Below, piece by piece: positions 1 through 17,206 of a stretch of DNA of 17,206 nucleotides (positions within the stretch are counted from its first letter, which is position 1; every line of letters starts with the position of its first letter). Position numbers and translations under genes: made by a program. This DNA comes from Candidatus Omnitrophota bacterium (GTDB lineage: Bacteria; Omnitrophota; Gorgyraeia; JACOVV01): assembly GCA_023248175.1 (NCBI GenBank), contig JAHFFC010000008.1, positions 1-17,206 on the forward strand, written 5' to 3'. Below the pieces are notes generated by a model. The model was not told the origin of the DNA. It did no database searches and saw only the letters and a program-made list of their open reading frames with translations.

Positions 1-80
1 CTTTTGACTTTTAAAGCAGTGCGATTCCCGTATCGCTGGACACGATTGTGGAACATCGCCACTAGGCTCGCTTCCTCCAT
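1..80 (-). CDS. AMP-dependent acyl-CoA synthetase-like protein, N-terminal fragment
   Basis: Only the first 26 codons are inside the window; the gene continues past the left edge. The reading starts MEEASLVAMFHNRVQRYG and continues NRTALKVK. The pattern of a short helix, an RYG turn and an N-R-T-A-L-K/R strand is typical of the N-terminus of long-chain fatty acid-CoA ligases of the AMP-binding family. These enzymes activate fatty acids with ATP and CoA at the inner membrane face. The start is supported by a strong Shine-Dalgarno sequence (AAGGAGG, about four bases before the ATG at 80-78). A second in-frame ATG lies at codon 9. The family call rests on very few residues, so any adenylate-forming enzyme with a similar N-terminus is possible. 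Confidence 0.55.
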   Translation of the reverse strand, partial: MEEASLVAMFHNRVQRYGNRTALKVK

Positions 81-153
81 CAATCCTCCTTTACCTCCCT
101 CTCAAGTTTTATATAGTTTCTGTCAAGTAAAAATAGGGAGCGGCTGTAATGCT

Positions 154-186
154 TCAGTCGTCAATGGTCAGTCATAAGTCATCAGT
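154..186. repeat. Short-period TCAGTC/GTCAT-rich tract
   Basis: The gap between the phosphodiesterase gene and the acyl-CoA synthetase start contains a tract made of imperfect repeats of TCAGTCGTCA, GTCAGTCATAA and GTCATCAGT. It looks like a decayed short tandem repeat. I see no protein-coding content and no convincing terminator in this gap. Confidence 0.35.
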
Positions 187-199
187 ATAAAACGGACGC

Positions 200-829
200 T
201 TAGAGAATATCCGGATAATCACTGATAATACCATCCACACCCATTTTCTTAAAATATTGTACCTGGTCTGGTGTGTTCACGGTCCAGGTAAAGACTTTTT
301 TCTTTCTCTGGTGAGCTTGATCCACTAATTCAGGTGTGCAAACCGTCCACCGTGGGTGGACTACGTCCAGTCCCATCTCCACGGCCTTTTGAAGGTGTAC
401 CATGGGGCGGCGGTCAAAGATGAGACCGTATGTAGGGGCACAGCGCCCCGTGCCGCTACTCGTCAAGGATTTTATCTGTCTCATTGTTGATGCGTCAAAA
501 GAAGAAATGACGCACTGATCTTCGAAGCCTTCCTGTTTTAAAAGAGAGAGCAGATTCTCCTCAATGCCTGGATAGGTTTTCCCACCCTCTTTAATTTCGA
601 TGTTCAATTGAATTTTACCTTTGATGAAATGGATAACCTCTGCCAGTAGGGGCGAATGATTATTCGCCCCTACCTTTTTGGGTTTTTGATGCCTCACCAC
701 CAATTGCCCCTTCCATTGGTGAATGTCAAGTTCGATCATGTCGGCTTTGAGATCAATCGCTTTCTGAAATGCCTCCAATGTATTCTCAGGTGCGTAGCCG
801 CTGGCGCCGCGATGGGCGATTTTAAGCAT
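200..829 (-). CDS. ugpQ: Short cytoplasmic glycerophosphodiester phosphodiesterase (GDPD family)
   Basis: The predicted enzyme hydrolyses glycerophosphodiesters to glycerol-3-phosphate and an alcohol. The 209-residue protein has the family signatures: HRGASGYAPENT (His6, Glu15, Asn16), the metal-binding ELD (33-35), a second His at 47 in VVRH, NIEIKEG near 76-82 and the C-terminal WTVN...GVDGIISDYP. No signal peptide is present, so it is more UgpQ-like than periplasmic GlpQ. The usual HD after the second strand is HQ here. The region between that His and the LLAEV helix is very short and is largely the repeat-encoded VGANNHSPL (53-61). A second repeat encodes SSGTGRCAPT (124-133). I chose the ATG at 829 because homologues begin a few residues before HRG; an ATG at 865 would overlap glpK. 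Neither start has a clear ribosome site, so coupling to glpK is likely. Confidence 0.85.
   Translation of the reverse strand: MLKIAHRGASGYAPENTLEAFQKAIDLKADMIELDIHQWKGQLVVRHQKPKKVGANNHSPLLAEVIHFIKGKIQLNIEIKEGGKTYPGIEENLLSLLKQEGFEDQCVISSFDASTMRQIKSLTSSGTGRCAPTYGLIFDRRPMVHLQKAVEMGLDVVHPRWTVCTPELVDQAHQRKKKVFTWTVNTPDQVQYFKKMGVDGIISDYPDIL
432..459. repeat. 28-base imperfect palindrome (GTAGGGGCAC type) inside ugpQ-like gene
   Basis: The arms GTAGGGGCACAG and CCGTGCCGCTAC pair at 10 of 12 positions around a four-base centre. The length of 28 and the GTAGGGGC start match the other palindrome family in this window, but the inner bases differ. The coding strand reads through it as SSGTGRCAPT, between the IKSL helix and the YGLIFDRRP strand of the phosphodiesterase. 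Confidence 0.7.
646..673. repeat. 28-base palindrome (GTAGGGGCGAAT family), copy 1
   Basis: Perfect 12-base arms GTAGGGGCGAAT and ATTCGCCCCTAC flank the centre GATT. The copy lies in the phosphodiesterase gene and is translated as VGANNHSPL. The two other frames contain TAG or TAA, so only this frame can be read through. Confidence 0.95.
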
Positions 830-836
830 GGTAGAT

Positions 837-2384
837 TCAGAGTCTTCTTTTTTTAGCTTTTCCATAGACTAACGTTGCTTCTACTGCATGTTGCCACTCT
901 CGATAAAGTTTCTCTCTAAAATGAGCTGACATCTTTGGACGAAAGATTGTGGTAGGTTGTTCTATCGCTCGGAGCTCTTCCACTGAACTCCAAAACCCCA
1001 CTGCAAGTCCAGCAAGCTTAGCGACTCCCCATGCCGTGGATTGCGCCATTGGAGAACAGAAAACTGGTTTTCCAAGAATATCCGCTTGAAACTGCATCAG
1101 GAAACGATTCGCGGTAGCTCCTCCATCCACCCGCAGAGGAATCTTCCTAGATCCCCTTTTTGAAGTGATATAAAGATGATAGATTTCTTCTATCATTGTT
1201 TGGTAGACATCCCTTGTTTGATAAGCAATCGCCTCCAGTGCCGCGCGGATGATCTGCTCCCTTCCTGTTCCTCGTGTTAAACCGACGATCGTCCCTCTTG
1301 CCTCTGAGTTCCAATAAGGGGCCCCCAGTCCCACAAAGGCAGGAACAAAGTAGACCCCTGCATTATCCTTTAACTGGCTTGCGGGTCGTTCGCTCTCTGC
1401 TGAGGTCTGAATGACTTTCAACGAGTCTCTCAACCATTGGACAACCGCGCCTGCAATAAAAACAGCCCCTTCCAGGGCATAACAAGGTCCCCCTTGATCA
1501 TTACAGGCAATCGTTGTGAGTAATCCCTTGTTGGAATAGATGAGTTTCTTTCCTAAATTCATCATCAGAAAACATCCTGTGCCGTAGGTATTTTTCACAG
1601 TCCCAAGATCATAACAACCCTGTCCAAATAAAGATGCCTGCTGATCCCCCGCGATTCCAGTAATCGGAATTCCCGAAGGTAGGGGCGAATAATTATTCGC
1701 CCCTACCTTGAGGATTTTACCAAAGATTCCCGAGGAGGGTTTGAGTTCAGGAAGAATGGAAGAATGGATTTTCAGAATTTTTTGAAGTTGCTGATCCCAC
1801 TGGAGTGTTTTTAAATCAAGCAACAGTGTCCTTGAGGCATTGGTATAGTCAGTGGCATGAACCTTCCCACCTGTCAAATGCCATAAAAGCCAGCTATCCA
1901 CTGTCCCAAACCGCAGATAGCCTTGATGAGCTAATCTGCGGATACGCGGGTGGTTTTCGAAAAACCATGTCAGCTTGGTCCCAGAGAAATAGGGATCTAA
2001 AATGAGCCCTGTTTTTCGACGAAAAAGTGACTCTAATTTCAATCTCTTGAGACGCTCGCAGATTTCAGCCGACCGACGACACTGCCAGACAATCGCATTG
2101 GCAACCGCCCTTCCGTTTCTGCTATCCCAGAGTACCGTTGTCTCCCTCTGATTGGTGATACCGATTCCTGCGATTTTAGCTGGAGATATTTTAGCCTTCT
2201 CAATTGCCTCAGCAATGACACGAAGAGTCTTTTGCAGAATTTCCTCAGGGTCGTGTTCTACCCACCCAGGATGAGGATAGATTTGTGTGATTTCACGGTA
2301 GGCATCACTGAGAATCTTTCCTTGTTTGTCAAATAGGATGGCCCGTGTTCCTGTAGTTCCCTGATCAATCGCCAGAATTGTCAT
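837..2384 (-). CDS. glpK: Glycerol kinase
   Basis: GlpK phosphorylates glycerol with ATP to sn-glycerol-3-phosphate in the cytoplasm and belongs to the FGGY sugar kinase family. The 515-residue protein starts MTILAIDQGTTGTRAILFD, the first ATP-binding loop. It has the glycerol-site strings NQRETTVLWD (78-87) and TDYTNASRT (178-186), then GIAGDQQASLFGQ (243-255), KNTYGTGCF and the signature GGATANRFLMQFQADILG. It is slightly longer than the usual 495-500 residues. Part of the excess is a repeat-encoded peptide VGANNYSPL (227-235) in the loop just before the GIPITGIAGDQQ strand. The start ATG overlaps the stop of the upstream membrane protein by one base (TAATG), so translation is probably coupled. 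The active-site motifs appear intact and the enzyme should be functional. Confidence 0.97.
   Translation of the reverse strand: MTILAIDQGTTGTRAILFDKQGKILSDAYREITQIYPHPGWVEHDPEEILQKTLRVIAEAIEKAKISPAKIAGIGITNQRETTVLWDSRNGRAVANAIVWQCRRSAEICERLKRLKLESLFRRKTGLILDPYFSGTKLTWFFENHPRIRRLAHQGYLRFGTVDSWLLWHLTGGKVHATDYTNASRTLLLDLKTLQWDQQLQKILKIHSSILPELKPSSGIFGKILKVGANNYSPLPSGIPITGIAGDQQASLFGQGCYDLGTVKNTYGTGCFLMMNLGKKLIYSNKGLLTTIACNDQGGPCYALEGAVFIAGAVVQWLRDSLKVIQTSAESERPASQLKDNAGVYFVPAFVGLGAPYWNSEARGTIVGLTRGTGREQIIRAALEAIAYQTRDVYQTMIEEIYHLYITSKRGSRKIPLRVDGGATANRFLMQFQADILGKPVFCSPMAQSTAWGVAKLAGLAVGFWSSVEELRAIEQPTTIFRPKMSAHFREKLYREWQHAVEATLVYGKAKKRRL
1679..1706. repeat. 28-base palindrome (GTAGGGGCGAAT family), copy 2
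   Basis: Perfect 12-base arms identical to copies 1 and 3, with centre AATT, which makes the whole 28 bases a perfect palindrome. It lies inside glpK and is read as VGANNYSPL (residues 227-235) in a surface-loop position of the glycerol kinase fold. Confidence 0.95.
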
Positions 2385-4195
2385 TAGAGTGGTCTCATGA
2401 TCTTATAGATCGTAATAGAACCGTTACGATAAACTGCTTCCATGGGTATTCCTTTAAAAATCTCATCCCGCTTGATTTCTATATCATATAAGCCAACCCA
2501 CACATAGTCGACCGGATACTTTCTCAATCCTATTAGTGGATTATATTCCGAAAAATTATGAATCATTTCTTGAGCTTTTTTTTCGGACAAGTAATTCCCA
2601 TTAAAACCAAACATGTATGACTCTCCGAAGGCTTCTCCTTTTGGAACCCCCGTTTTTTTAGTAGCATCCCTACTAGTAAACGCCTCTACATAATTCCGTG
2701 GAACTCCCAATATTTTATAAGCAGCCAAAAATCGCTCCAAGATCTCCTCGTTACTGGAAATCGCCTCTAATCCATTGCTTAGAAAAGCTCCATTATGGGT
2801 ATAAACCGGTAACAGAAAACTCGTTCTAAAACTACACGACATCACAATGCTTCCATTGGCGGTATTTTGGTTGAGCCAATTAAACGCAGACCGAAGTTCT
2901 GGGGATAGACTATAGCCATGATAGTTTTTAAAAGCAAAGCGGCCATTAGTATAATACCCATAAAAGATAAAAAAGGTAATCACTAAAGAACAAAACAAGA
3001 TATATATCCTCTTGAGTAATTGGGCCAAGTTGCGAATGAAAAAATTTTGATAGGGGTATTGAACAATTTTTACCAGAAAAACAATCATCATGATAACAAC
3101 CCAATGTTGTAGAATCATTGCATTCCAGTGATTTTTTAATATCGTTTTCCCGGTGACTAAATGAATATTTAACAAAAAAATTCCTGCAAAGAAAAAACTC
3201 ATTAAAAAATAAAATGTATTGTCTCGCTTTCCGTAAACCACTGTAAAAATCAACGCGAACGCTAGGTAAAACCATGGTATATTGGGTTGACGGCCATACT
3301 CTAACGCATACCGCACTAAGAATTCAAGATAGGCAGGATTTTTTACAAAGGAAAAGGCGCAAAACCAGAAAGGGATTGAAAGCAATACACCAATGACGAT
3401 CGTTAAAAGGATGAGTTTTGAAGAAATCCAGTCTTTCTTTACCAGGGACCAAACTAATAATATTACACAACCTGTGATAAAAAACGTCCAGTAATAGAAA
3501 TAACAATAGAAAAGGGTACCTAATAGCAAACCAGCAAGAATTCCGAGACCTATTTTTTTTGTCTGAAGCGACTTAAAAAAGAAGTAAATTGCCATCGTCA
3601 CTATTACAAAATTAAACTGGGACTCTAATCTTGAGAATTCTAATGGGACTTTCCCACTACCATAATTCACTAAATAACTCCAGGTCTGTTGTAATTTAGA
3701 CACGGTAATTGGTGGAAAACTAAATAGTAAATGATGTCCATATAAAACTGCAGCCCCCCCTAAGACACTCACCAGTTTCTTCTGAGTTATTTTGACCAAT
3801 AAACAATAGATGAGTAAAAAAATAATCGGCGGGAAAATAAAGTCTCCAAGAATAGATACGTTTTTTATAGATCCTAACCCACGCGTCATTAGCGCAAATA
3901 AAAAAACATGAAGTATGGGTGGACGAAAATATCCTCTCTCAAAATAGCGTCCATCATAGGCTTGCCTGACTTTAGAAGCATACCCCACCTCATCCCATTT
4001 TGCATGACTGAAAGGTTCAATCACAAATGGAGTATACGTTTTACCTTCTTTCTCAAGTAAGTAATTCATTATGATATGAGGACAACCAAACGAAAGACTA
4101 ACAATAACCAAAAATAAAATAAACATCCCGATTATTAAACAATGATTTAGTCTTGTATGACTAAACCTCGCCATGCCTGCAGTCTCAAATTTCAT
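2384..4195 (-). CDS. Polytopic membrane protein, GT-C/PMT-like, function unknown
   Basis: The protein of about 603 residues has roughly ten hydrophobic segments between residues 18 and 415, then a soluble C-terminal region of about 180 residues. After the first segment a long loop contains WDEVGYASKVR and FRPPILHVFLF. An acidic DE pair in the first external loop is typical of GT-C glycosyltransferases that use polyprenyl-phosphate sugars. The C-terminal FNWLNQNTANGSIVMS also resembles the soluble part of such proteins. I do not recognise a named family; an O-antigen or glycan membrane protein is the best guess. The ATG at 4195 is preferred because GGAGG lies nine bases before it. The ATG at 4204 directly abuts that site. 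Sampled lines have lower G+C (30-40%) than neighbouring genes (42-52%), which may indicate a separate origin. The gene begins 66 bases after pyrG and its stop overlaps glpK. Confidence 0.75.
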   Translation of the reverse strand: MKFETAGMARFSHTRLNHCLIIGMFILFLVIVSLSFGCPHIIMNYLLEKEGKTYTPFVIEPFSHAKWDEVGYASKVRQAYDGRYFERGYFRPPILHVFLFALMTRGLGSIKNVSILGDFIFPPIIFLLIYCLLVKITQKKLVSVLGGAAVLYGHHLLFSFPPITVSKLQQTWSYLVNYGSGKVPLEFSRLESQFNFVIVTMAIYFFFKSLQTKKIGLGILAGLLLGTLFYCYFYYWTFFITGCVILLVWSLVKKDWISSKLILLTIVIGVLLSIPFWFCAFSFVKNPAYLEFLVRYALEYGRQPNIPWFYLAFALIFTVVYGKRDNTFYFLMSFFFAGIFLLNIHLVTGKTILKNHWNAMILQHWVVIMMIVFLVKIVQYPYQNFFIRNLAQLLKRIYILFCSLVITFFIFYGYYTNGRFAFKNYHGYSLSPELRSAFNWLNQNTANGSIVMSCSFRTSFLLPVYTHNGAFLSNGLEAISSNEEILERFLAAYKILGVPRNYVEAFTSRDATKKTGVPKGEAFGESYMFGFNGNYLSEKKAQEMIHNFSEYNPLIGLRKYPVDYVWVGLYDIEIKRDEIFKGIPMEAVYRNGSITIYKIMRPL

Positions 4196-4261
4196 GTTAA
4201 GCATCCTCCTTCAGTTCAATTCGATTCAGTTTCAGCTTGACCTTTCTGTTTTAAACTTGAT

Positions 4262-5863
4262 TCAGATGGCTTCCAAAGAAGCCCGTATAAAATCCCTAAA
4301 AAGTGGATGGCAGGCGTCTGGTTTGGACTGGAATTCCGGATGGAATTGACACCCGATAAACCATGGGTGGTCTTGCAGTTCGATGACTTCAACGAGGTTG
4401 CCGGTCGGTGTTTGGCCTGAAATAATGAGCCCGTTCTTCTCCATCGCCTCCACGTATTTATTGTTGAACTCGTAGCGGTGGCGGTGGCGTTCCACAACTT
4501 CTTCTTTTTTATAGACTTTGTGGGTCAATGTTCCTTTCTTGACGACGCAGGGATAGCTTCCCAAGCGCATCGTCCCCCCCATTTTCTTGATTCGTTTTTG
4601 TTCTTCCAAGAGTGAAATAACAGGATAGGGAGTCTTCTTGTTAAATTCAGTAGAATGGGCTTCTTTAAACCCGCAGACATTGCGCGCAAATTCAATCACC
4701 GCGCACTGCATTCCCAAACAAATCCCAAAGAAAGGAATTCTATTCTCACGGACGTACTGGATCGCTTTAATTTTGCCAAGGATACCGCGGTCCCCAAACC
4801 CCCCCGGTACAAGAATTCCCTTGATGCCCCGCAGAAATCCCTCCGGCCCTTTTTCTTCGATATCAACCGCATCCACTTTTTTGATTTCGACCCTTGTGTC
4901 ATTTTCAATCCCGCCATGGCGAAGAGCCTCATAGATGGACTTGTACGCATCCTGCAATTCGATATACTTTCCGACAACGGCAATCTGTGTTGTCTTGGAG
5001 GGATTCAAAGCTCTCTTGACAACCTTCTCCTCCCATTCTTTTAAATCCTCCTGATGACATTTCAACCGGAGTAAATCAACAATGATCTGGTCCAGTTTTT
5101 GTTCCTTGAATACCAGAGGCACCTCATAGATGTCGCGCACGTCGGGAGCCTGGACGACGCATTCCTCTTCCACATTGCAGAAGAGAGCGATCTTTTCACG
5201 GACTTTTTTATTGAGCGGTTTTTCAGTACGGCAGAGCAAAATATCAGGTTGAATGCCAATCTCGCGTAATTTTCCGACGCTGTGCTGAGTAGGTTTTGTT
5301 TTTAATTCTTCCGCCGCCCTAATGTAAGGAACCAGCGTTAGATGAATGTTAATCGCGTTATGTCTTCCCACATCGTGGCGGAATTGACGGATGGCTTCCA
5401 AAAAGGGTAAACTTTCGATGTCACCTACTGTTCCTCCAATCTCACAAATCACCACATCGATTCTTTTTCCCTTGGTCACGGCCTTCAGGTACTGCTTGAT
5501 CTGGTTGGTGATGTGCGGAACGACTTGAATCGTCCCTCCAAGGAAAGCTCCCCGCCGTTCCTTCTCGATGACGGTGTAATAAATTTTACCGGCGGTGATG
5601 TTGTTTTCTTTGCCGATGACAGCGTGAGTAAATCGTTCGTAATGCCCCAAGTCCAGGTCGGTCTCCGCACCATCATGAGTGACATAAACTTCTCCATGTT
5701 GATACGGGTTCATAGTTCCGGGGTCAACATTGAGATAGGGGTCACATTTCTGCAGGGTAATTCTCAGCCCTTTGGCTTCGAGGAGTTTGCCAATCGAGGA
5801 AGCGGCGATTCCTTTTCCTAAACTAGAAACAACGCCGCCGGTCACAAAAATATATTTAGGCAT
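4262..5863 (-). CDS. pyrG: CTP synthase
   Basis: PyrG converts UTP, ATP and glutamine to CTP. The 533-residue protein has the normal family length. The N-terminal synthetase domain shows [10 protein letters not shown] (9-18), [19 protein letters not shown], the [16 protein letters not shown] stretch and [12 protein letters not shown]. The C-terminal class I glutaminase domain has the nucleophile Cys382 in GICLGMQ and the His508-Glu510 pair in HPEF. A longer open frame upstream of [10 protein letters not shown] only overlaps kdsB. The ATG at 5863 is the true start and has GGAG about eight bases upstream. It overlaps the kdsB stop by eight bases. The pairing makes sense because KdsB uses CTP to activate KDO, and kdsB-pyrG neighbours are common in Gram-negative bacteria. 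Confidence 0.98.
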
Positions 5864-6608
5864 CCACGTTCTCCATCTCTTCCTGCAGCCTTTTTTTCGC
5901 CAATTCCAAATCCTCCGGTGTATCAATTCCGACGGTATCGTATTTTGTCTCAATGGCGCGAATCCGATAGCCATGTTCTAATGCGCGGAGCTGTTCCAGT
6001 TTCTCCGCCTTTTCCAATTTGGAAACTGGGAGGTTACGAAAAGTAAAAAGAAAATCCTTGGTGTAGGCATACAGTCCCAAATGCCGGTAATAAGTTTGCT
6101 TGGGATGCCCTTTTTCATCACGGTAGTAAGGAATCGGTGCCCGGGAAAAATACAAGGCATAACCGTACTTGTCCGCCACTACTTTAACCACATTGGGATT
6201 ACAAATTTCTTCCGCGTTGCGGATCCGGACCATCAGCGTTGACATGACCGCTTTGGAATCCTCTAACAGCGCGCTGACCACTCCATGGATCATTTCAGGC
6301 CGGATAAAAGGCTCATCTGCCTGAATGTTGACGACTACTTTAACGTCGAGCGGCTGAATCACCTCTGTCAGGCGATCGGTTCCGGTTTCATGTCCTTTCG
6401 CGGTCAAAACCGCTTTCCCACCAAAGCCCTCGACGACTTTCAAAATTCTTTCGTCATCGCAGGCGACGATCAGATCGTCAAGAATCTTTCCCTTTTTGGC
6501 GTTTTCATAGACATGTTGAATTACCGGCTTGCCGCCAAGATCCGCAAGAACTTTTCCCTCAAATCGGGTCGAATGATACCGGGCAGGAATCACCCCAATC
6601 GCGTTCAT
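5856..6608 (-). CDS. kdsB: 3-deoxy-manno-octulosonate cytidylyltransferase (CMP-KDO synthetase)
   Basis: KdsB transfers CMP from CTP to KDO, giving the CMP-KDO donor for the inner core of LPS. The 250-residue protein has the family features: [16 protein letters not shown] at the N-terminus (nucleotide binding), ETGTDRLTE (74-82), the metal-binding NIQADEPFI (94-102), [23 protein letters not shown] and [12 protein letters not shown] near the C-terminus. The length is standard. The start ATG overlaps the upstream kinase stop (ATGA, four bases), and the 3' end overlaps pyrG by eight bases. This indicates one coupled operon for KDO and heptose activation. Many relatives have QGDEP where this protein has QADEP; the catalytic acidic residues are kept. 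Confidence 0.97.
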
Positions 6609-7591
6609 GGCTTTCTCCCAATTCTCTCGATCAATTCGTCCGGCGTTGCCACCGCGACGCCGATTTTGCCAACGACAATTCCCGCCGCGAAGTTTGATAT
6701 GCGGGCCGCCTGTTCTACTGTTGCTCCCACGGAAAGGGCCGCCGTCAGTACTGCGATCACTGTATCTCCTGCTCCTGAAACATCAAAAACCTCCTGAGCC
6801 ACGGTGGGGATATCTGTTACTTTTCCCTTCGTTTCAAAAAGACACATTCCATTTTCACCTACGGTAATCAGAACCGAATCACACTTGAGCAGTTTCAGCA
6901 GTTCCTTTCCCACTCGGTGCAGACTCTCATCCCCATTGACCTTGATTCCGACAGCATTACCAGCCTCATGGTGATTGGGGGTAATCACCGTGACCCCCTG
7001 ATAGTAATCAAAATGGTTTTCCTTGGGATCAACGCTGATGATTTTCTTATTGGCTTTTGCCATTGAAACCACTTCCTGAATCAGCCGCGCCGAGATGACT
7101 CCCTTGCCATAATCTTCAATGAGAAGCGCGTCAATCTTCTCCATCTGCTTTCGGATGTATGCCAGAATTTGCTCCAGGATATTGCCGTTGATTTCGGACG
7201 TCTTCTCACGATCCACACGGACCACCTGCTGATGGTGAGCCACAATCCGGGTCTTCATGGTAGTGGGGCGCTCCCCATCCAAAATTAACCCACCGGTATC
7301 AATTCCCCGCTTCTGCAATTCCTGTTGAAGCAGTTTTCCCCGTTCATCTTTCCCAACGATACCGCAAAGAAATGGTGTAGCTCCAAGAGCACGAAGATTA
7401 CTAGCCACGTTGCTAGCTCCCCCTGGCATGAACGATTCAGACTTCACCCAGACCACAGGAACAGGGGCCTCGGGAGAGATTCTCTCCACATCCCCCCAAA
7501 TGAACTCGTCTAAGATAAGATCGCCGATGACAAGGACGCGTGCCTTAGGGAGGCGGTTGACTAGATTTTTGAGGTGTGAAGGATTGACCAT
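6605..7591 (-). CDS. rfaE1: D-glycero-beta-D-manno-heptose-7-phosphate kinase (RfaE1/HldA type)
   Basis: This PfkB-family kinase phosphorylates heptose-7-phosphate at C1 in the ADP-heptose pathway for the LPS inner core. The 328 residues cover only the kinase domain; the cytidylyltransferase-like half found in bifunctional HldE is absent here and would have to be encoded elsewhere. Visible motifs are VIGDLILDEFIWG (21-33), FMPGGASNVASNL (54-66), the IEDYGKGV loop (158-165), DPKENHF, TPNHHEA and the anion hole and catalytic-base motif DVSGAGDTV (270-278). It is the first gene of its transcription unit: a promoter ends 38 bases upstream of the ATG. The ribosome site is weak. ADP-heptose made through this route would feed the GT9 transferases encoded just upstream. 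Confidence 0.93.
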   Translation of the reverse strand: MVNPSHLKNLVNRLPKARVLVIGDLILDEFIWGDVERISPEAPVPVVWVKSESFMPGGASNVASNLRALGATPFLCGIVGKDERGKLLQQELQKRGIDTGGLILDGERPTTMKTRIVAHHQQVVRVDREKTSEINGNILEQILAYIRKQMEKIDALLIEDYGKGVISARLIQEVVSMAKANKKIISVDPKENHFDYYQGVTVITPNHHEAGNAVGIKVNGDESLHRVGKELLKLLKCDSVLITVGENGMCLFETKGKVTDIPTVAQEVFDVSGAGDTVIAVLTAALSVGATVEQAARISNFAAGIVVGKIGVAVATPDELIERIGRKP

Positions 7592-7629
7592 AGATGCAAT
7601 CTTAAAACATTCTATAACACTGATAATTT

Positions 7630-7658
7630 ATTATACCTAACTCAATACTAATTCGCAA
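7630..7658 (-). promoter_or_regulatory. Sigma70-type promoter for rfaE1-kdsB-pyrG unit
   Basis: On the minus strand a TTGCGA -35 box (7658-7653; four of six consensus bases) is followed after exactly 17 bases by a perfect TATAAT -10 box (7635-7630). The start of rfaE1 lies 38 bases further on, giving an expected leader of about 30 bases. The promoter sits in the only sizeable gap (107 bases) between the overlapping LPS glycosyltransferase genes and the KDO/heptose genes. It therefore divides the region into two transcription units, although read-through from upstream cannot be excluded. Confidence 0.7.
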
Positions 7659-7698
7659 GTTTGCATTTTCCAGCTTTTCTCTAGAAAAACCTTAGGGG

Positions 7699-8745
7699 TT
7701 ATTCGATTGATTCAATGGTGACGGTAATTTTCCCCACGCGTGTAGCCTCGGCACGCACGATGAGGGGAATTCGCTTTTCATCGGCACTGAACCAAATCCA
7801 AATCCTCCCTTTAGGAGGGCCCGATTTCTTCTTGTCCCTCTGGCTCAGATCAGGAGAATCTGTAAGGATCGCAGACGGTTCTATGAGGAAGGCTTCATGA
7901 ACTCCAAAATTACGAATTTCCAAGATCCCCTGTTCTACTGTTTTCATCCCTACTTGCCAATTTTTTTCATCGGCGACCAGGGGGAATAAGAGTTCAAGAT
8001 CAGTCTTATAAGGGGCAGTCCTAAAATAATAAATCGCGCTCAAAATATCCTGGACGGATCCGGAAATCGTGAATTCCTTGGTTTCATTCTTCAAAGGAGC
8101 GTAATAAACACCTTTCTTCTCGGACGGATAGAAGGTGTTGATTTCGTAAGCGCGATATCTTCCCTGTGCCACTTTTCTTTCAAAACGGCGGCTCGAATGA
8201 TTCTGCGTGTCCCAGTAACTTTGATAGACATCGTCAATTTTGTAGAACTTTGAAAGAAATCCGTTGGATTTTATCGCACCGATGAGGTGATAAACCTCTG
8301 TTTGTTCAAAGAAAGTTTTCTCCTTCACTTCAATCGTGAGGGTGCCAACCGGGATTCCGATCCACCGAATGGTGTAAGTTAATTTTTCTCCAACCCTCGG
8401 CTCGACTTGGGGGGGCTTTAGGGTGACCTCTTTAACTTGCAACCCGGGAGTCACGGGATGTCTGCGCATCTGCGTTAAACTGGAACAGCCTGATAAGAGC
8501 AGAACCATCACTACTAACACGAGGACAATGTTTTCTGAGCGACTTTGGAGCCGAGTGAGAAGACTGGAACGGGGTCTTCGGCGAGGACTGTCTGATCCCA
8601 CACCCAGAATCCTCTGGGTGTGGGGGAGTTCCGCAGCCTCTGCCAGAGGCAGACCCGCCTCCGGCGGGGCCGTACCACTACCCTTCAAACGTCTTTCGGC
8701 GACACGGAGCGAAGAAAATATTGTCCTCGTGGTTTTATCCTTCAC
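7699..8745 (-). CDS. DUF3108-type lipoprotein with repeat inserted in signal peptide
   Basis: The mature part (from about residue 100) matches the DUF3108 pattern: VGEKLTYTIRWIGIPVGTLTIEV, YKIDDVYQSYWD, GSVQDILSAIYYFRT and KGRIWIWFSADEKRIPL. Its function is not established; such proteins are envelope-located. A lipobox LLSGC places the lipidated Cys at residue 87, far from the start. The frame begins with GTG at 8745 (AAGGA five bases upstream, overlapping the preceding GT9 gene by 11 bases). It reads MKDKT, then 71 residues from a 214-base repeat, then LVVMVLLLSGC. Removing the repeat restores a normal lipoprotein signal of 16 residues. Translation may instead begin at the internal GTG at 8520 or at the ATG at codon 80, but no ribosome site is visible there. 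Whether the protein is still exported is uncertain. Confidence 0.8.
   Translation of the reverse strand: MKDKTTRTIFSSLRVAERRLKGSGTAPPEAGLPLAEAAELPHTQRILGVGSDSPRRRPRSSLLTRLQSRSENIVLVLVVMVLLLSGCSSLTQMRRHPVTPGLQVKEVTLKPPQVEPRVGEKLTYTIRWIGIPVGTLTIEVKEKTFFEQTEVYHLIGAIKSNGFLSKFYKIDDVYQSYWDTQNHSSRRFERKVAQGRYRAYEINTFYPSEKKGVYYAPLKNETKEFTISGSVQDILSAIYYFRTAPYKTDLELLFPLVADEKNWQVGMKTVEQGILEIRNFGVHEAFLIEPSAILTDSPDLSQRDKKKSGPPKGRIWIWFSADEKRIPLIVRAEATRVGKITVTIESIE
8518..8731. repeat. 214-base MITE-like element with terminal inverted repeats and three hairpins
   Basis: The ends are 19-base inverted repeats (CACGAGGACAATGTTTTCT and its complement) with one mismatch. Inside lie three hairpins in a row: CCCACACCCAGA with its 12-base complement around ATCC (8597-8624), GCCTCTG/CAGAGGC (8636-8650) and CCCGCC-TCC-GGCGGG (8654-8668). 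There is no transposase gene and I see no clear target-site duplication. It contributes 213 bases, or 71 codons, to the lipoprotein frame and starts just after the stop codon of the upstream GT9 gene. It is probably a non-autonomous mobile element. Confidence 0.85.
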
Positions 8746-9805
8746 AATTTCCTTGTGTTTTTAAAATTCTCAGCGCCTCTTTTAATACTTCATCCACGGT
8801 AATCGCTGAAAGATTTTCCATCTCACTACCGACCCGCTTAAACAGATAGCGATCCCGCTTCCCCAACGGCCGCCAACGAACAGGCCCTAAGCCGGGATGA
8901 TCTCGTCCAAAAAGGGATAAGACAGGCGTCCCCGAGGCCACTGCTATATGGACCGGTCCGCTATCGTTGGAAATGAGTAATTTAGACTTCTTCACTAACG
9001 CCGTCAATTCTAAAAGTGTTGTCTCTCCTGATAAATCAATCGCTCCCGGGATTTGTTTTGCTATTCCCATTCCTAAAGAACGCTCAGCCGAGCCGGTGAT
9101 GACAACAATCCCAATATCGAACTGTTCCATTAATCGTTTCCCCGTTTCTGCAAAGCGCTCCGCCGGCCAGCATTTGCGGGGATCACTGGCGCCCGGATGC
9201 AAGACGATAAAAGGGCGATCTTTTGTCAGGCCGGCCGCTATTAGCCGTTGTTCCATCTTTTCCTCAGTCTTTCTATCGTGCGCGATCCAAAAAGAATAAG
9301 AGTTCGCCCTGCTGCTCTCTTTTGTCCCCCATGGGCTTTGATCAACAAAATCAAGAACATTCTCGACTTCATGCTGATTGCTCAGATGTCTTCGATCCGT
9401 AATAAAATCGGTCAACAGCCACTTTCCCCACTTCGCTGGATACCCTACCCGACGAGGAATGCCAGCTAAAAATACAACTAGATGCACTCGCCGAGTGGGA
9501 TGAAAAACAAGCACCGCGTCAAATTTTCTTTGTCTCAATTGAAAGACCAGACGGAGCGTCCCAAATACTCCTTTGTGAATTCCCCCCTTATCGAGAGCAA
9601 GCACTTCTTGCAGACCGGGATGTCCTTTGACTAGTTCTGCCGTGTTGACGTTTACCAGCATTGATTGTAGGGGCGAATAATGATTCGCCCCTACGGATCT
9701 TTTGCGCCATTTTTCATGGATATAAGAAATCGCCGGCACCGTTAACAAAAGATCACCGATACGATCACATCGAACCAATAGGATTCTTTGAGGTAATTGG
9801 ATCAC
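8735..9805 (-). CDS. Glycosyltransferase family 9 (heptosyltransferase-like), copy A
   Basis: The GT9 family transfers heptose, usually from ADP-heptose, to the growing LPS core at the cytoplasmic face. The 356-residue protein has the N-terminal RILLVRCDRIGDLLLTVPAI, a middle IVLHPGASDPRKCWPAERFAE and the C-terminal donor site LLISNDSGPVHIAVASGTP followed by LFGRDHPGLGP. Unlike the other GT9 proteins here it lacks the C-terminal cysteine cluster. The start is a GTG at 9805 that overlaps the upstream stop by four bases (GTGA). A longer frame to 9862 would lie inside the upstream gene. The peptide VGANHYSPL (38-46) is encoded by a palindromic repeat placed between the first helix (ISYIHEKW) and the following strand (SMLVNV). 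The exact acceptor cannot be told. Confidence 0.9.
   Translation of the reverse strand: MIQLPQRILLVRCDRIGDLLLTVPAISYIHEKWRKRSVGANHYSPLQSMLVNVNTAELVKGHPGLQEVLALDKGGIHKGVFGTLRLVFQLRQRKFDAVLVFHPTRRVHLVVFLAGIPRRVGYPAKWGKWLLTDFITDRRHLSNQHEVENVLDFVDQSPWGTKESSRANSYSFWIAHDRKTEEKMEQRLIAAGLTKDRPFIVLHPGASDPRKCWPAERFAETGKRLMEQFDIGIVVITGSAERSLGMGIAKQIPGAIDLSGETTLLELTALVKKSKLLISNDSGPVHIAVASGTPVLSLFGRDHPGLGPVRWRPLGKRDRYLFKRVGSEMENLSAITVDEVLKEALRILKTQGNCEG
9667..9694. repeat. 28-base palindrome (GTAGGGGCGAAT family), copy 3
   Basis: Perfect 12-base arms with centre AATG. It lies inside GT9 copy A and is read as VGANHYSPL, in the same frame of the repeat as the copies in the phosphodiesterase and glpK genes. 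Confidence 0.95.
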
Positions 9806-10731
9806 GATATCAATTCGTTTACGGCATCTAATATTTCTTTTGGCTGTATCTGTTCCATGCATTCATGGTGATAAACACAGAGTGACTTCTCACAGGGAGA
9901 ACAAAAGAGCGTTTTCCGGACAACCCGTGAATTCTCTCTCCATGAGCCATATTTTAACGGGTCCGTGGGACCAAAGATCGCCACGACCGGCGTGCCGAAT
10001 AAACCTGCCATGTGCAAAGGAGCGCTGTCATGGCTGATCAATAATTTCGCCTCGCGGATGAGCCAGGCAAGTTGCAGTAATTCTGTTTTCCCGCAGAGAT
10101 CAAAAACCCGCGGTGATTGTACCTGTTTGACAATCTCCTGGCTGCGAATGTGGTCACTTTCATCTCCAGTTAACAGAATCGGAAATGGATTTCGCCGGAC
10201 CAACGACCGGCAAAGCTCGACAAACCCCTCGACCTTCCAACGTTTTGTCATATTTAAACTTCCCGGTGTTACTATCATCCATTGCTCACTGATAGGAACT
10301 CCTTCTTTTTTTAGCAACTCTATTGCTCTCTGCTCTACTATTTCAGGAAGCCAAAGCGCTCTGGCGGTATTGACCTCATTGATAAAATCGGCGTTAACGA
10401 TTCCCTTTTGGATCAGTTTCTGGAAATGCATCACCCGGCGATGCGGCTTCCAATTTCGAAAACCAACCGGGTTTCTGAAGTTAATGACTTGATTAAATCC
10501 TTTGCTAATGATTTCTAATACCAGTAACAACTTTTCTTCAGCGCCTGCGTTTTTACGCCAAACCCAGACCTTTTTAAATCGAGGATCTCCTTCAAACAAC
10601 TGTTGTGCCCTCTCACCCACCACCAAACTTATCTCTGCCTGCGGAAATTTCTCCCGCAACGCCTGGATGGAAGGAAGTGTTAGCAAAACATCACCGATGT
10701 TGCTGAGAGTGATAATCAGAATCTTAGTCAT
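9802..10731 (-). CDS. Glycosyltransferase family 9 (heptosyltransferase-like), copy B
   Basis: A 309-residue GT9 protein, shorter than its neighbours. It begins KILIITLSNIGDVLLTLPSIQAL, the usual acceptor-side Rossmann start. It has VTPGSLNMTKRWKVEGFVEL in the middle and the donor site LLISHDSAPLHMAGLFGTP with AIFGPTDP. A C-terminal cysteine cluster (CSPC, then LCVYHHECM) matches that of many GT9 proteins. It begins only three bases after the upstream stop and ends in a GTGA overlap with copy A. No repeat insertion is visible. The region after INFRNPVGFRNWK is compact, which accounts for the short length. It is probably an LPS core or related sugar transferase; the specific acceptor is unknown. 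Confidence 0.9.
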   Translation of the reverse strand: MTKILIITLSNIGDVLLTLPSIQALREKFPQAEISLVVGERAQQLFEGDPRFKKVWVWRKNAGAEEKLLLVLEIISKGFNQVINFRNPVGFRNWKPHRRVMHFQKLIQKGIVNADFINEVNTARALWLPEIVEQRAIELLKKEGVPISEQWMIVTPGSLNMTKRWKVEGFVELCRSLVRRNPFPILLTGDESDHIRSQEIVKQVQSPRVFDLCGKTELLQLAWLIREAKLLISHDSAPLHMAGLFGTPVVAIFGPTDPLKYGSWRENSRVVRKTLFCSPCEKSLCVYHHECMEQIQPKEILDAVNELIS

Positions 10732-10734
10732 GTT

Positions 10735-11859
10735 TTATGCGGGCTTCTGCAGCAACTCACAACACGCCCTCCAAACCTCCTCCACCGAAATCGCTCTCAT
10801 ACAAACATTTTCCTTGCACCCCAGGTTATAACAGGGATCCTCATTACACCCGACTTCTTTGCGCAAAATCCTGACCGGGCCTTTGCCGTAGGGGCCCGTG
10901 AGGTGAGGTTGAGTTGGCCCAAAAAGAGTTACCACCGGCGTCCCGACCGCCGACGCCAGATGCATCGGTCCAGTATCGTTAGTCACGACCAAAGCCGCCT
11001 GTTTGAAGAGTGCCGCCAATTCCTCCAAGCCGTTCTTGCCGTAAAAGGACCAAACACCCCTGCGATCCCTTCTAACAACTTGCGTTATCAAAGATTCATC
11101 CGTTTTGCTCCCTGTTACAATCACAGGAATCTGCTCGTTGCTAAAATAATCAAGCAGTTTCGAAAAATTTTCTGTTGGCCAGCGCTTCAACTCCCAATTG
11201 GCCCCCGGCTGAACCACAACAAAGAGTCTATCCTTCAGTCCCATTGCCTCTAGCTCTTCCTGCGCCCATTTTCTTTTTTCTTCAACCAGATGAAATTGAT
11301 ACCACGGCCGGTGAATTTTGATTCCGGCAAAGCGGGCCAGATCTAAAAAATATTCCACTTTATGCTTGCCATGCTGGAGCCATTCTTGATGTGCAGGGGC
11401 GGGTTTTGGGGTCAAGTCTTGATATTTGACAAGCTTGTCAAATATCAAGACTTGACCCCAATGTCTCGACCGATTGGGCCAGAGCGGGTCGGTCAACAGC
11501 CAGCGTTGTTTCCAGTGAGCGTACCCAATTCTTTTTGGAATTCCCGCGAGGACGCAGAGTAGAAGCCTTGTCATTGATCGGTGAAGTAAAAATGCCGTGT
11601 CGAATCTTTTTTGGCGCAGTTGCGTGACGAACTTCCACTTTGAAAAAATCCCGCGGTTTCCCCTTTGGTCATAAACCAGTAGATCATCAATGAAGGGTTG
11701 CCCCTGTAAAAGTTCTACGCAGCGGGGGACCACCCAGCAGGTAATTTCCGCTTCGGGATAAGACTCCCTTAACGCGGCTAGGAATGGGAAAGTAAGGAGA
11801 ACATCCCCAACCCAGTTTGGATGAACGACAAGGATTCTTTTGGGAGTCGGCATCATCAT
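10735..11859 (-). CDS. waaF: Lipopolysaccharide heptosyltransferase II-like (GT9), copy C
   Basis: A 374-residue GT9 protein most like heptosyltransferase II (RfaF/WaaF). It has RILVVHPNWVGDVLLTFPFL at the N-terminus, VVVQPGANWELKRWPTENF in the middle and LVVTNDTGPMHLASAVGTP with LFGPTQP at the donor site. A cysteine-rich C-terminus follows (GCNEDPC, LGCKENVCM). WaaF adds the second inner-core heptose. The start is one of three consecutive ATG codons. The first (11859) overlaps the upstream stop as ATGA. The third (11853) lies six bases after an AAGGG site and could be the real one. Residues 134-151 (W...DLTP) are encoded by a perfect 56-base palindrome in the loop between the WLLTDPLWPNRS segment and the KVEYFLDLARFAGI helix. 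The waaF label is by resemblance only. Confidence 0.88.
   Translation of the reverse strand: MMMPTPKRILVVHPNWVGDVLLTFPFLAALRESYPEAEITCWVVPRCVELLQGQPFIDDLLVYDQRGNRGIFSKWKFVTQLRQKRFDTAFLLHRSMTRLLLCVLAGIPKRIGYAHWKQRWLLTDPLWPNRSRHWGQVLIFDKLVKYQDLTPKPAPAHQEWLQHGKHKVEYFLDLARFAGIKIHRPWYQFHLVEEKRKWAQEELEAMGLKDRLFVVVQPGANWELKRWPTENFSKLLDYFSNEQIPVIVTGSKTDESLITQVVRRDRRGVWSFYGKNGLEELAALFKQAALVVTNDTGPMHLASAVGTPVVTLFGPTQPHLTGPYGKGPVRILRKEVGCNEDPCYNLGCKENVCMRAISVEEVWRACCELLQKPA
11406..11461. repeat. 56-base perfect palindrome inside GT9 copy C
   Basis: I checked all 28 base pairs by eye: 11406-11433 is exactly complementary to 11461-11434, centred on AAGCTT with no spacer. The outer part TTGGGGTCAAGTCTTGA resembles repeat ends commonly associated with REP-type (RAYT/Y1) transposases. 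It is read through in the single stop-free frame as an 18-residue peptide from WGQVLIFDK to DLTP. Because it is palindromic, the same peptide is also encoded on the plus strand. Confidence 0.95.
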
Positions 11860-14033
11860 CCCTTGGTTGTTGATCTTTCTCTTCTGTCGTCTCTCGTCCC
11901 TCGCCTGCCCTGAGCAGGGTCGAAGGGTCCCTCATCCCTCAAGTACTTCCTCACCTCTTGATAAACTTCTTCGACCGTGACCGACTCCAGACAATTGTGG
12001 TGAACCAAGGGACAACGGGTTTTATAGCACGGCTGGCATATAAGATTACGATAAAAAACAGTCCCTTTTTTGTAAGGAGGCAAATGTCTTTGAGGATCCG
12101 TCGGCCCAAAAAGAGCGATCAAAGGGGTACCGACCGCGGCCGCTACATGGAGTGGGGCACTGTCATGCCCCACTAACACCCGGCATCCTTTTAGAAGAAC
12201 GGCTAACTCCACAATCGTCGTTTTCCCGACCAGATTCAACGGATTCGACTGCGTCTTTTGAATCAGCTCTCTAGCCAGAGGTTCGTCGCCGAGAGCTCCA
12301 ATCAGCACAGCTCTGATCCCCCCTTTTCCTAAGCGGTCGATTAATTCGGCGAAACGATCCATGCCCCATCGCTTGGCTATCCAGCGCTGGCTGGTAAAGG
12401 GACTGACAGCGACTAATTTCTGATTCTCTGAAATCCATCCGTTCTCAAACCACTTCTGAACTTTCTGTTCATCTTCTTTCGATGGCCAAAGTTCCAACAA
12501 TTCTTCCTTTGGGGGAGTGATCCCTGCAAAACGAAGAAGCTGAAACTGATGCTGGACTGCCGAGATTTTCTTCTTCCAATCTCTGCATCCATGGGAAAGC
12601 AGGAAGTCCCATTTTCCATTGCGATACCCGTAACGCAGAGGAGCAAAACTTAAAAATCCGGCAAGATGACTGATTTTATTATTCTGCAAATCAATGAGTA
12701 TATCAAACCGTTGCCGACGGAGTTCGCTGCCCAATTGGAGTATTCCAACCCACCCGTGATGACGCCTCTTTGAGTCGTAAACAATTATCTCATCTACATA
12801 TGGACACCTCTGCAAAATCGGGACTGATTCTGTTCCCGTCAATACCGCGATCCAAGCATTGGGATACTGAGAACGGATTGCCCGCAGGCTTGGAGTTGCC
12901 AGAATAACGTCCCCTATGGAACTCATCTTAATCACTAAGATTCTCTTGTTGGCCATCGCCTCCTCGTATACCGCCATCGAGCGGCTGACCATTTTTTCAA
13001 GGGAAAATTCTTCTTCTACCCGTTGTCGAGCCGCTTTCACCAGCGAATCAGCGAAAGCAGGCTCTTTCAGAATTCTCAGAATGGCAGCCGACAAAGTTAA
13101 GGGATCGGAAGGAGGAACCAATAGTCCTGTTTTTTGATCTTCAATGATATCCACCACACCGCCGACCCGAGTAGCTACGACAGGAACTCCCACGGCTTGG
13201 GCCTCCACAATGACTCTGCCAAACGCCTCCGGCGTCACCGTTGACAAAACCAGAACATCGAGATGGCTCAGGATCTCCGCGATATCGGAGCAATTTCCTA
13301 AAAACTCCACTTGGCGTGACAGCCCCAATCGGCGAGTCAGTTGTTGAAGGTGGTTCAAATAATCTTCCTTTTCTTTCGGTACGTCTCCGACGATCCAAAT
13401 TCGACAATTGGGAAACTCCTGAACTACCTTGACCATCGCTCTTAGAAAATCACCATGCCCCTTCAATGGAGTCATCCGCCCAATGATACCAACGGTGATT
13501 TCCTTTTCTTCTCCTGTCCGTTTTGTTTCTCCACGATAGGAAAACTGTGTTAAATCAACTCCTCTTGGAATCAACCGAATCCTTGAGCGCGGAACATCGA
13601 AATCCTCGATCATATGGCGGGCGATGGCGTTGCTGATAGCAATCACAAACTTTCCCCATCCCATCACGCGGCTGAAAAAATGATTGGAGTAGTATCCATG
13701 ACAGGTTGTGATGAAGGGAATACAATGTTTTCGACTTACCCAGAAACCAATCCAAGCCGGCACCCGGGAACGGGCATGGACAATATTAATCTTTTCCTGC
13801 TCGATGATTTTTCCAATTTCGCGCACCATTCTCCACATCGTTAAAAGATTCTTGTCATGGACAGGAAGCCGATAATGGATCACCCCTGTTCCAGAAAGTT
13901 TGTCAGCCAACTCCCCACCATTAGAAATGACCACTGATTTATGCCCCCGCTTTGTCAGAGCAATCGTTAAATCATAGGTTCCCCGCTCCACGCCGCCGAC
14001 ATCCATCTCTGGGACGATTTGTAGGATGTTCAT
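11856..14033 (-). CDS. Two-domain glycosyltransferase: GT4 fused to GT9
   Basis: The 725-residue protein joins two complete transferases. Residues 1-358 are a GT-B fold GT4 enzyme: DVGGVERGTYDL (11-22), TCHGYY, IPRGVDLTQF (155-164), GIIGRMTPLKGHGDF (182-196; Arg and Lys for donor phosphates) and the EX7E motif E269-E277. Residues 360-713 are a GT9 enzyme beginning MANKRILVIKMSSIGDVIL, with VGHDSAPLHVAAAVGTP, ALFGPTDP and a cysteine cluster (CQPCYKTRCPLVHHNC). At the junction an internal ATG (12956) follows GAGGAGG by two bases, as if two genes had lost a stop. Separate GT9 expression is possible. The extreme C-terminus contains repeat-encoded PFDPAQGRR and an Arg-rich tail. The gene overlaps both neighbours by ATGA. 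It probably adds two core sugars in succession. Confidence 0.9.
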   Translation of the reverse strand: MNILQIVPEMDVGGVERGTYDLTIALTKRGHKSVVISNGGELADKLSGTGVIHYRLPVHDKNLLTMWRMVREIGKIIEQEKINIVHARSRVPAWIGFWVSRKHCIPFITTCHGYYSNHFFSRVMGWGKFVIAISNAIARHMIEDFDVPRSRIRLIPRGVDLTQFSYRGETKRTGEEKEITVGIIGRMTPLKGHGDFLRAMVKVVQEFPNCRIWIVGDVPKEKEDYLNHLQQLTRRLGLSRQVEFLGNCSDIAEILSHLDVLVLSTVTPEAFGRVIVEAQAVGVPVVATRVGGVVDIIEDQKTGLLVPPSDPLTLSAAILRILKEPAFADSLVKAARQRVEEEFSLEKMVSRSMAVYEEAMANKRILVIKMSSIGDVILATPSLRAIRSQYPNAWIAVLTGTESVPILQRCPYVDEIIVYDSKRRHHGWVGILQLGSELRRQRFDILIDLQNNKISHLAGFLSFAPLRYGYRNGKWDFLLSHGCRDWKKKISAVQHQFQLLRFAGITPPKEELLELWPSKEDEQKVQKWFENGWISENQKLVAVSPFTSQRWIAKRWGMDRFAELIDRLGKGGIRAVLIGALGDEPLARELIQKTQSNPLNLVGKTTIVELAVLLKGCRVLVGHDSAPLHVAAAVGTPLIALFGPTDPQRHLPPYKKGTVFYRNLICQPCYKTRCPLVHHNCLESVTVEEVYQEVRKYLRDEGPFDPAQGRRGTRDDRRERSTTKG
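11905..11927. repeat. CCCTTCGACCCTGCTCAGGG-type repeat at the 3' end of the GT4-GT9 gene
   Basis: The segment has a small hairpin (CCCTG-AG-CAGGG, 11908-11919) and, on the minus strand, the string CCCTTCGACCCTGCTCAGGG. I recognise this from repeats scattered in many environmental genomes. It is read as PFDPAQGRR close to the C-terminus, after the last conserved helix of the GT9 domain (VEEVYQEVRKYL), so it probably extended the protein. Confidence 0.55.
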
Positions 14034-17049: not shown

Positions 17050-17131
17050 CCCACCACCTGATTTTACTAGTTGAAAGCTGGTTTACCAGAAATTCCCCAA
17101 GTTGACTGATGACGTTGATAATCTTAAAACT

Positions 17132-17206
17132 CCCCCTTTGAAAAAGGGGGAAAAAGGGGGATTTAGAGGATTTAGAGAATCAAATCCCCCCTGACCCCCC
17201 TTTTCT
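17132..17206. repeat. CCCCCTTT/AAAGGGGG intergenic repeat upstream of lpxK, cut by window edge
   Basis: The segment holds a hairpin of CCCCCTTT with AAAAGGGGG (17132-17150), a second AAAAAGGGGG, two tandem copies of GATTTAGAG (17160-17177) and then AAATCCCCCCTGACCCCCC. That last string is the start of an inverted counterpart. It is a widely distributed type of intergenic repeat and continues beyond the window. The remaining 80 bases before lpxK show a small CTGGT-TT-ACCAG hairpin but no promoter that I can support. Confidence 0.7.

Follow-up and report, generated by a model that had tools for sequence, protein, structure and literature searches.

The Rickettsia palindromic elements (RPEs) of Ogata et al. 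are reportedly palindromes found within many unrelated genes, where they are read in frame as part of the protein; they reach up to about 150 bp and belong to the Rickettsiales. The small dispersed repeats (SDRs) of cyanobacteria are said, after Elhai et al. in 2008, to be mobile repeats of 21-27 nt, some with a shared hairpin, compensatory changes and nested copies. A third system, the REPINs, consists of paired repetitive extragenic palindromes (REPs) that are mobilized by REP-associated tyrosine transposases (RAYTs) and lie between genes. Those of Pseudomonas are described as short palindromic mobile DNA without a protein of its own (PMC3116915). The GTAG-tagged REPs are 20-40 nt palindromes with a GTAG at one end that lies outside the base pairing, and they are tied to RAYTs (Di Nocera et al. 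2013, PMC3733652). Most REPs are intergenic, some are intragenic and translated, and RPE-4 and RPE-6 are themselves CGTC repeats (PMC3733652); gene-internal translated palindromes are hence already on record from Rickettsia and from some REP-rich genomes. Here we describe a 28-nt palindromic element from a 17,206-nt stretch of a Candidatus Omnitrophota genome (contig JAHFFC010000008.1, positions 1 to 17,206; henceforth the window). It works like the Rickettsia elements and the intragenic REPs, yet lacks features by which REPs are defined, and we file it under neither. Beyond what a preliminary description of this DNA had noticed, some sites that genes of two species have in common are occupied by copies with different cores, a hint at possible rewriting of the repeat where it stands.

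The pattern GTAGGGGCGAATNNNNATTCGCCCCTAC matches the window exactly three times, at 646..673, 1679..1706 and 9667..9694. No further match turns up there with up to three mismatches, and three matches were reached in none of 200 dinucleotide shuffles of the window, bearing out the three exact copies of the preliminary description. Copy 1 lies in a glycerophosphoryl diester phosphodiesterase (GDPD) gene (200..865, minus strand; Pfam GDPD, 1e-31, 111 bits), copy 2 in the glycerol kinase gene glpK (837..2384, minus strand; Pfam FGGY_N, 6.4e-82, 275 bits; FGGY_C, 145 bits; glycerol kinases in the PDB, 5e-165) and copy 3 in a glycosyltransferase family 9 (GT9) gene (8735..9862, minus strand; Pfam Glyco_transf_9, 1.4e-32, 113 bits). 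Pfam thus assigns the hosts to different families, in keeping with their earlier description as unrelated. The minus strand is the coding strand for all three copies, which encode VGANNHSPL, VGANNYSPL and VGANHYSPL, respectively, in agreement with the proposed reading VGAN-(N/H)-(H/Y)-SPL. Copy 2 corresponds to residues 227-236 of GlpK, within the FGGY_N match at 3-254. As RNA, every window copy forms a hairpin with 12 base pairs or more: copy 1, as a 48-nt RNA, reaches -25.1 kcal/mol (z -5.3), the pairing of copy 2 extends by three further bases on each side (-32.9 kcal/mol), and the hairpins of four copies span -22 to -33 kcal/mol with z-scores of -5 to -8.5. On the coding strand, one frame opens with TAG in all three copies. 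The earlier claim that both alternative frames contain a stop holds for copies 1 and 2, whose third frame reads RGE*, and fails for copy 3, whose third frame is open (RGESLFAP). The GDPD gene further contains a decayed family member, GTAGGGGCACAGCGCCCCGTGCCGCTAC, at 432..459 (minus strand), translated in frame 1 as SSGTGRCAPT, and thus carries two family members in the two usable frames.

These copies belong to a family defined by the ends GTAGGGGC and GCCCCTAC, which flank a variable palindromic core, usually of 12-13 nt, in units mostly of 27-29 nt. The genome of the window (G000, 880 kb, 71% complete) has the three exact copies and one with a single mismatch; with the ends alone fixed it has 16 copies, or 17 including the mismatched one. 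In a second Omnitrophota genome of the same genus (G001, 60% complete), the exact type was counted 12 times and the family 79 times, and reversed-pattern controls for the family counts gave 0. In fetched loci, the ends are faultless in 51 of 56 well-paired copies of G001 and in 9 of 13 of G000, fractions that are biased upward because the loci were fetched mostly for exact copies. The cores of G001 recur, GGGTTTAAAACCC in 19 and ACATTGCAATGT in 10 of 63 fetched copies. Contigs C10, C49, C60 and C127 of G001 start within a copy; assemblies breaking at repeats may make the copy counts too low. Partial arm duplications adjoin some complete copies (L054 3063-3090, L264 1585-1612, L052 5093-5138) and look as if they came from hairpin slippage or nested insertion. 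Across the class, the 28-nt form with these ends occurs in 31 of 292 genomes, with a maximum of 102 copies. The exact type occurs in at least 117 stretches of a collection holding one genome per species; by our reading, the titles of 80 of these span at least 14 phyla, with Desulfacinum infernum DSM 9756 as one carrier, and include no Rickettsiales. A literature text search for the string GTAGGGGCGAAT returned no match, and we do not claim beyond the searches made that the family is unpublished.

Across the genus, 17 sites could be compared between G000 and G001. Five are filled by a family member in both species (in genes for GT9, GcvT, the uracil-DNA glycosylase UDG4 and a TPR protein, and at the second site in PurH), two hold a family member in one and another repeat family in the other, and ten are filled in one and empty in the other; the shared fraction is biased upward, as GcvT, UDG4 and LpxK were noticed in translations and not via flank searches. 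A site matched over 58 bp only (L061/L285) was left unscored. The cores differ at four of the five doubly filled sites. In GcvT, both junctions are equal to the base, with the core GAATCATGATTC in one species and ACATTGCAATGT in the other: four of the six core pairs are changed on both sides and none on one side, the core is paired in both species, and the peptide reads VGANHDSPL versus VGAHCNVPL. The GcvT core of G001 is of a type found 10 times among 63 copies of that genome and 0 times among the 17 of G000. In the TPR gene, two core pairs are changed on both sides and one pair on one side only. At the GT9 site (G001 contig C115, identical to JACOVV010000175.1 of a Candidatus Omnitrophota metagenome-assembled genome [MAG] from groundwater), the arms are identical at 24 of 24 positions and the core is of the same type, with CATT versus GATC at its center. 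The ends are identical at 16/16 bases in GT9, 15/16 in GcvT and 16/16 in TPR (47/48 in total), as against about 74% identity around the GT9 copy. We read these sequences as indicating that the sites were filled before the species split and that later their cores were probably replaced, with G001 receiving types that circulate in its own genome; for the lineage of G000, the singleton cores are compatible with drift or decay.

In their relation to genes, the copies of this genus differ from those found elsewhere. For 75 copies from the loci of the two genomes (58 of the 79 in G001, with the contig-start copies on C10 and C49 not included), 42 lie strictly within open reading frames (ORFs) of at least 120 codons, seven at ORF ends, seven at contig ends and 19 elsewhere, among which the threshold counts a copy in a 100-residue SpoVG gene. 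Leaving out those at contig ends, 42 of 68 are inside ORFs, against 82% (G000) and 87% (G001) of random positions. In other organisms, the exact 28-mer is in ORFs in 25 of 82 cases and outside in 57 (random expectation 83%), where 25 is probably too high, the ORFs there being uncurated, and where two G001 loci were excluded from the 82. The difference between the whole family in the genus and the exact type elsewhere is significant (p = 0.00015), and the exact type, in which the four central bases may vary, is within ORFs in 13 of 16 cases in the genus. The identical 28-mer elsewhere, like most REPs, lies mostly between genes. The preliminary description had held that copies lying almost only between genes, with no frame bias, would tell against it; this genus shows neither, but such a pattern is nearly what the identical 28-mer shows elsewhere. 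Gene insertion is not a class-wide habit: among the copies looked at in three other genomes, 0/7 (G088), 0/4 (G083) and 3/4 (G147) are in such ORFs. A Pfam check of 48 in-ORF copies places 27 within or between domains (23 in frame 0 and four in frame 1), in genes such as those for RtcB, CobT, CobS, GatB, an acyltransferase, PabB, RecG, LpxK and an amino acid permease, and 21 outside domains, some of these in orthologue-confirmed genes like GT9 and TPR. Some single genes have two or three copies. Elsewhere, the exact type occurs in recognizable genes for a Xenococcus IleRS, an Oscillatoriales TnpB and a Spirochaetia Y1 transposase; in the Oscillatoriales case (L139 5020-6345), the 28-mer is in frame in the TNB-domain stretch of the tnpB gene.

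The in-ORF copies use frame 0 in 33 cases, frame 1 in nine and the TAG frame in none, which matches the prediction from the stop codons. For 18 of the 33 copies in frame 0, no other frame is open, and where two frames are open the split is 15 in frame 0 to nine in frame 1 (p = 0.31), which lends no support to a frame choice beyond the stop codons. The shared frame is therefore a matter of survivorship.

The earlier inference that flanking bases changed along with the insert is supported: wherever a net length is readable, copies of 28/29 nt add between 9 and 27 nt. Against repeat-free relatives, the gain is +21 nt (+7 aa) in RecG, in the metallophosphoesterase and at the first site in PabB, +18 nt (+6 aa) in GatB (about +6 residues against solved structures), +15 nt (+5 aa) at the third site in PurH and +9 nt (+3 aa) in a DUF1015 protein; GT9 gains +27 nt (+9 aa) over two repeat-free paralogues in the window, RtcB about four residues over solved structures, and a CobB/CobQ-type amidotransferase +39 nt through a copy of 52 nt. 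For GlpK, 29 loci were fetched out of 148 matching class genomes, a number that counts the genome of the window as well. The segment between the same anchors measures 30 aa in the window and 25-27 aa in 28 of the 29 homologues, a gain of +9 to +15 nt (+3 to +5 aa) over these, and 41 aa in the remaining one (L338 of G128), whose longer version contains no family palindrome. None of the 29 class homologues has VGAN..SPL at this site. The preliminary description had named the same peptide in distant homologues as a finding that would speak against insertion; it is absent from these GlpK homologues, and the GT9 site of the same-genus species has it, which we read as common descent. Net gains below the unit length mean that native bases, 1 to 19 of them, were lost in the event or later.

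The inserts of copies 2 and 3 appear to sit in loops, as had been proposed. In an AlphaFold2 model of GT9 (four sequences; mean confidence score [pLDDT] 69), residues 57-64 are predicted as coil between a helix (35-56) and a strand (65-71), with pLDDT below 50 at residues 56-61, and the two repeat-free paralogues have a nine-residue gap at this place. For GlpK, the indication is indirect: the segment varies in length among the 29 homologues, and the insert site is an alignment gap against solved glycerol kinases; a single-sequence model (pLDDT 39.6) was of no use for placing the loop.

We propose to see in the element a dispersed palindrome, non-autonomous and very small, with the GTAGGGGC...GCCCCTAC ends around a core, which has spread into genes within this Omnitrophota genus. 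A copy would enter in one event that costs the target some of its bases, 1 to 19 judging by net length, and the survivors would be those with a net change that is a multiple of three and a tolerant loop, where the insert is probably neutral for the host protein. Survivors read as VGAx...PL or xRG....APT because one frame of the ends contains TAG. Thereafter, the site would persist while its core is swapped, probably by copying from another family member. Directly observed are the copies, their frames, the net lengths, the shared occupancy of sites and the core differences there; single-event insertion with target loss, core copying and host neutrality are inferred. We give this reading as a whole a probability of roughly 0.55.

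Several observations weigh against it. Core replacement rests mainly on GcvT: GT9 differs at the center only, which is unpaired in G000; in TPR, one change is fully compensated and the others involve bases unpaired in G000 (two such positions); and UDG4 and the second PurH site have different cores together with partial duplications or gaps. No donor tract was seen. The G000 cores are mostly singletons (16 sequences in 17 copies), which fits drift as well. As to target loss, the GT9 gain is nearly the whole element, the second PabB site, a RodZ-like site and the GlgA end yield no clean gain value, and loss at insertion is inseparable from later trimming because the loops have diverged, at about 74% DNA identity. 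Microhomology-guided replacement by short single strands, an idea drawn from work on short-patch illegitimate recombination, is rejected: the longest shared words in six sites are 4-6 nt, not above random windows. Finally, the genus yielded no more than two genomes, each an incomplete MAG. Elsewhere, near relatives could be aligned around filled sites, among Chloroflexota as three pairs of loci and in a single Okeania genome as two loci; all were chosen for holding the 28-mer, and hence no empty site is readable in them.

Among the alternatives, the core differences might reflect ordinary mutation together with template-switch correction of imperfect palindromes, with no copying between loci. 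Template switching is reported to homogenize the arms of inverted repeats (PMC7202029, PMC8604942), and both the near-singleton cores of G000 and the GT9 pair, which differs at its central bases only, are what such drift would give. However, the cores of G001 recur (19 and 10 of 63), the GcvT core of that genome among them, and the ends have stayed unchanged at GT9, GcvT and TPR (47/48 bases) despite belonging to the same hairpin. We regard this account as possible, though unlikely.

Somewhat less probable is that the element is a GTAG-type REP mobilized by a RAYT that the assemblies lack or that works on the genome from elsewhere. The element shares with these REPs the unit size and high copy number (79 in G001, 17 in G000), the GTAG tag on a 20-40 nt palindrome, several types per genome, a patchy presence across distant phyla, and intragenic members on record (PMC3733652). 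Both genus genomes, moreover, are incomplete, and one Spirochaetia Y1 gene has the 28-mer in frame (L129 531-1106 of a MAG; Y1_Tnp at 23.4 bits against a cut-off of 23), just 3' of an MPNHVH motif—a single case among 80 loci selected for carrying the 28-mer. In contrast to the described families, the GTAG here pairs with CTAC, as seen for the three copies of the window and as set by the search pattern for the others counted, and both ends are fully paired; most of the genus copies examined are in ORFs, unlike the largely outlying 28-mer of other organisms; and the copies do not flank RAYT genes. No Y1_Tnp match was found in G001 despite its 79 copies; Y1 transposase genes are present in 25 of 31 palindrome-bearing and 200 of 261 palindrome-free class genomes (p = 0.82; a hand count over 292 genomes); and 61 Y1 loci, which total 180,519 bp and include 30 from five genomes with copies, contain no family palindrome. 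A RAYT as mobilizer is thus unsupported by co-occurrence, by the Y1 loci and by the neighborhood of the sole Y1 gene of G000, and Omnitrophota are not named as REP hosts in the available parts of PMC3733652. A more speculative extension of our own proposal, which we hold quite tentatively and think unlikely to be correct, is that some trans-acting machinery other than a RAYT recognizes the hairpin ends formed by GTAGGGGC, rewrites cores within genes at fixed sites and moves the 28-mer between phyla.

The remaining systems resemble the element by behavior. Like the Rickettsia elements, it is translated in frame in unrelated genes, 27 copies of it within or between Pfam domains; unlike them, it has an Omnitrophota host and a shorter unit, the RPEs being compared here by description. 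Its ends read GTAG, and RPE-4 and RPE-6 are CGTC repeats. The likeness to the Rickettsia elements drawn in the preliminary description stands for behavior; membership is not supported. The SDRs, likewise compared by description, are not known to be in-frame insertions in genes. The REPINs of Pseudomonas share with the element the short palindromic form and the lack of a protein of their own, and differ by their paired REPs, their RAYT and their place between genes.

About as improbable as a dedicated machinery is the idea that the same loops, as insertion hot spots, were hit independently in both species, with no single filling and no rewriting. In LpxK and at the first PurH site, the two species do carry repeats of different families at one and the same position; the loop of copy 2 is expanded in an unrelated way in one GlpK homologue; and differing REPs are reported at about the same recB site in two Xanthomonas species (PMC3733652). 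Yet the GT9 and GcvT junctions coincide to the base in gap-free alignments, an unlikely outcome if base loss varies per event. Selection for a benefit that the peptide or the mRNA hairpin brings to the host could draw on the strong fold (-22 to -33 kcal/mol) and the conserved GT9 arms, but the copies lie in unrelated genes, in two peptide frames, with 10 of 17 sites empty in the other species and with differing cores, and we consider this highly improbable. An assembly or binning artefact, conceivable with two fragmented MAGs in which several contigs start in a copy, is scarcely credible given sites common to two separate assemblies, genes intact across the copies and the presence of the 28-mer in Desulfacinum infernum DSM 9756.

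The window has in-gene repeats of several families, as is seen from further repeat-like stretches read in frame. The third GT9 gene contains, at 11406-11461, an in-frame palindrome from a different family, perfect over 56 bp (HWGQVLIFDKLVKYQDLTP), with pieces matching contig C73 of G001. Two more repeats are read in frame in the LpxK gene, at 16030-16074 and about 16350-16410: one is a GGGGACTGTCCCC pair, the other a stretch of the GTCATTCTGAGCGAAG type; at the place of the GTCATTCTGAGCGAAG-type stretch, the G001 orthologue has a GTAGGGGC palindrome. Two further repeat-like stretches, at 14563-14600 and 8597-8624, are likewise read in frame (TSSPFQGEGWGEG; PHTQRILGVG).

What the element offers is a 28-nt unit dense enough in two related genomes for doubly filled, singly filled and differently cored sites to be compared, opening to comparison both how a repeat enters genes without breaking them and whether it is renewed in place. 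The occurrence of the 28-mer across at least 14 phyla poses the question of how DNA of this small size can spread when no transposase is in sight. In practical terms, a predicted protein with a peptide such as VGANNYSPL or VGAGFKPAPT is better taken to contain repeat-coded residues there, not a motif. If the proposed rewriting is true, then one loop of orthologous enzymes would have been recoded, as in GcvT with VGANHDSPL in one species and VGAHCNVPL in the other, while its site stayed fixed.

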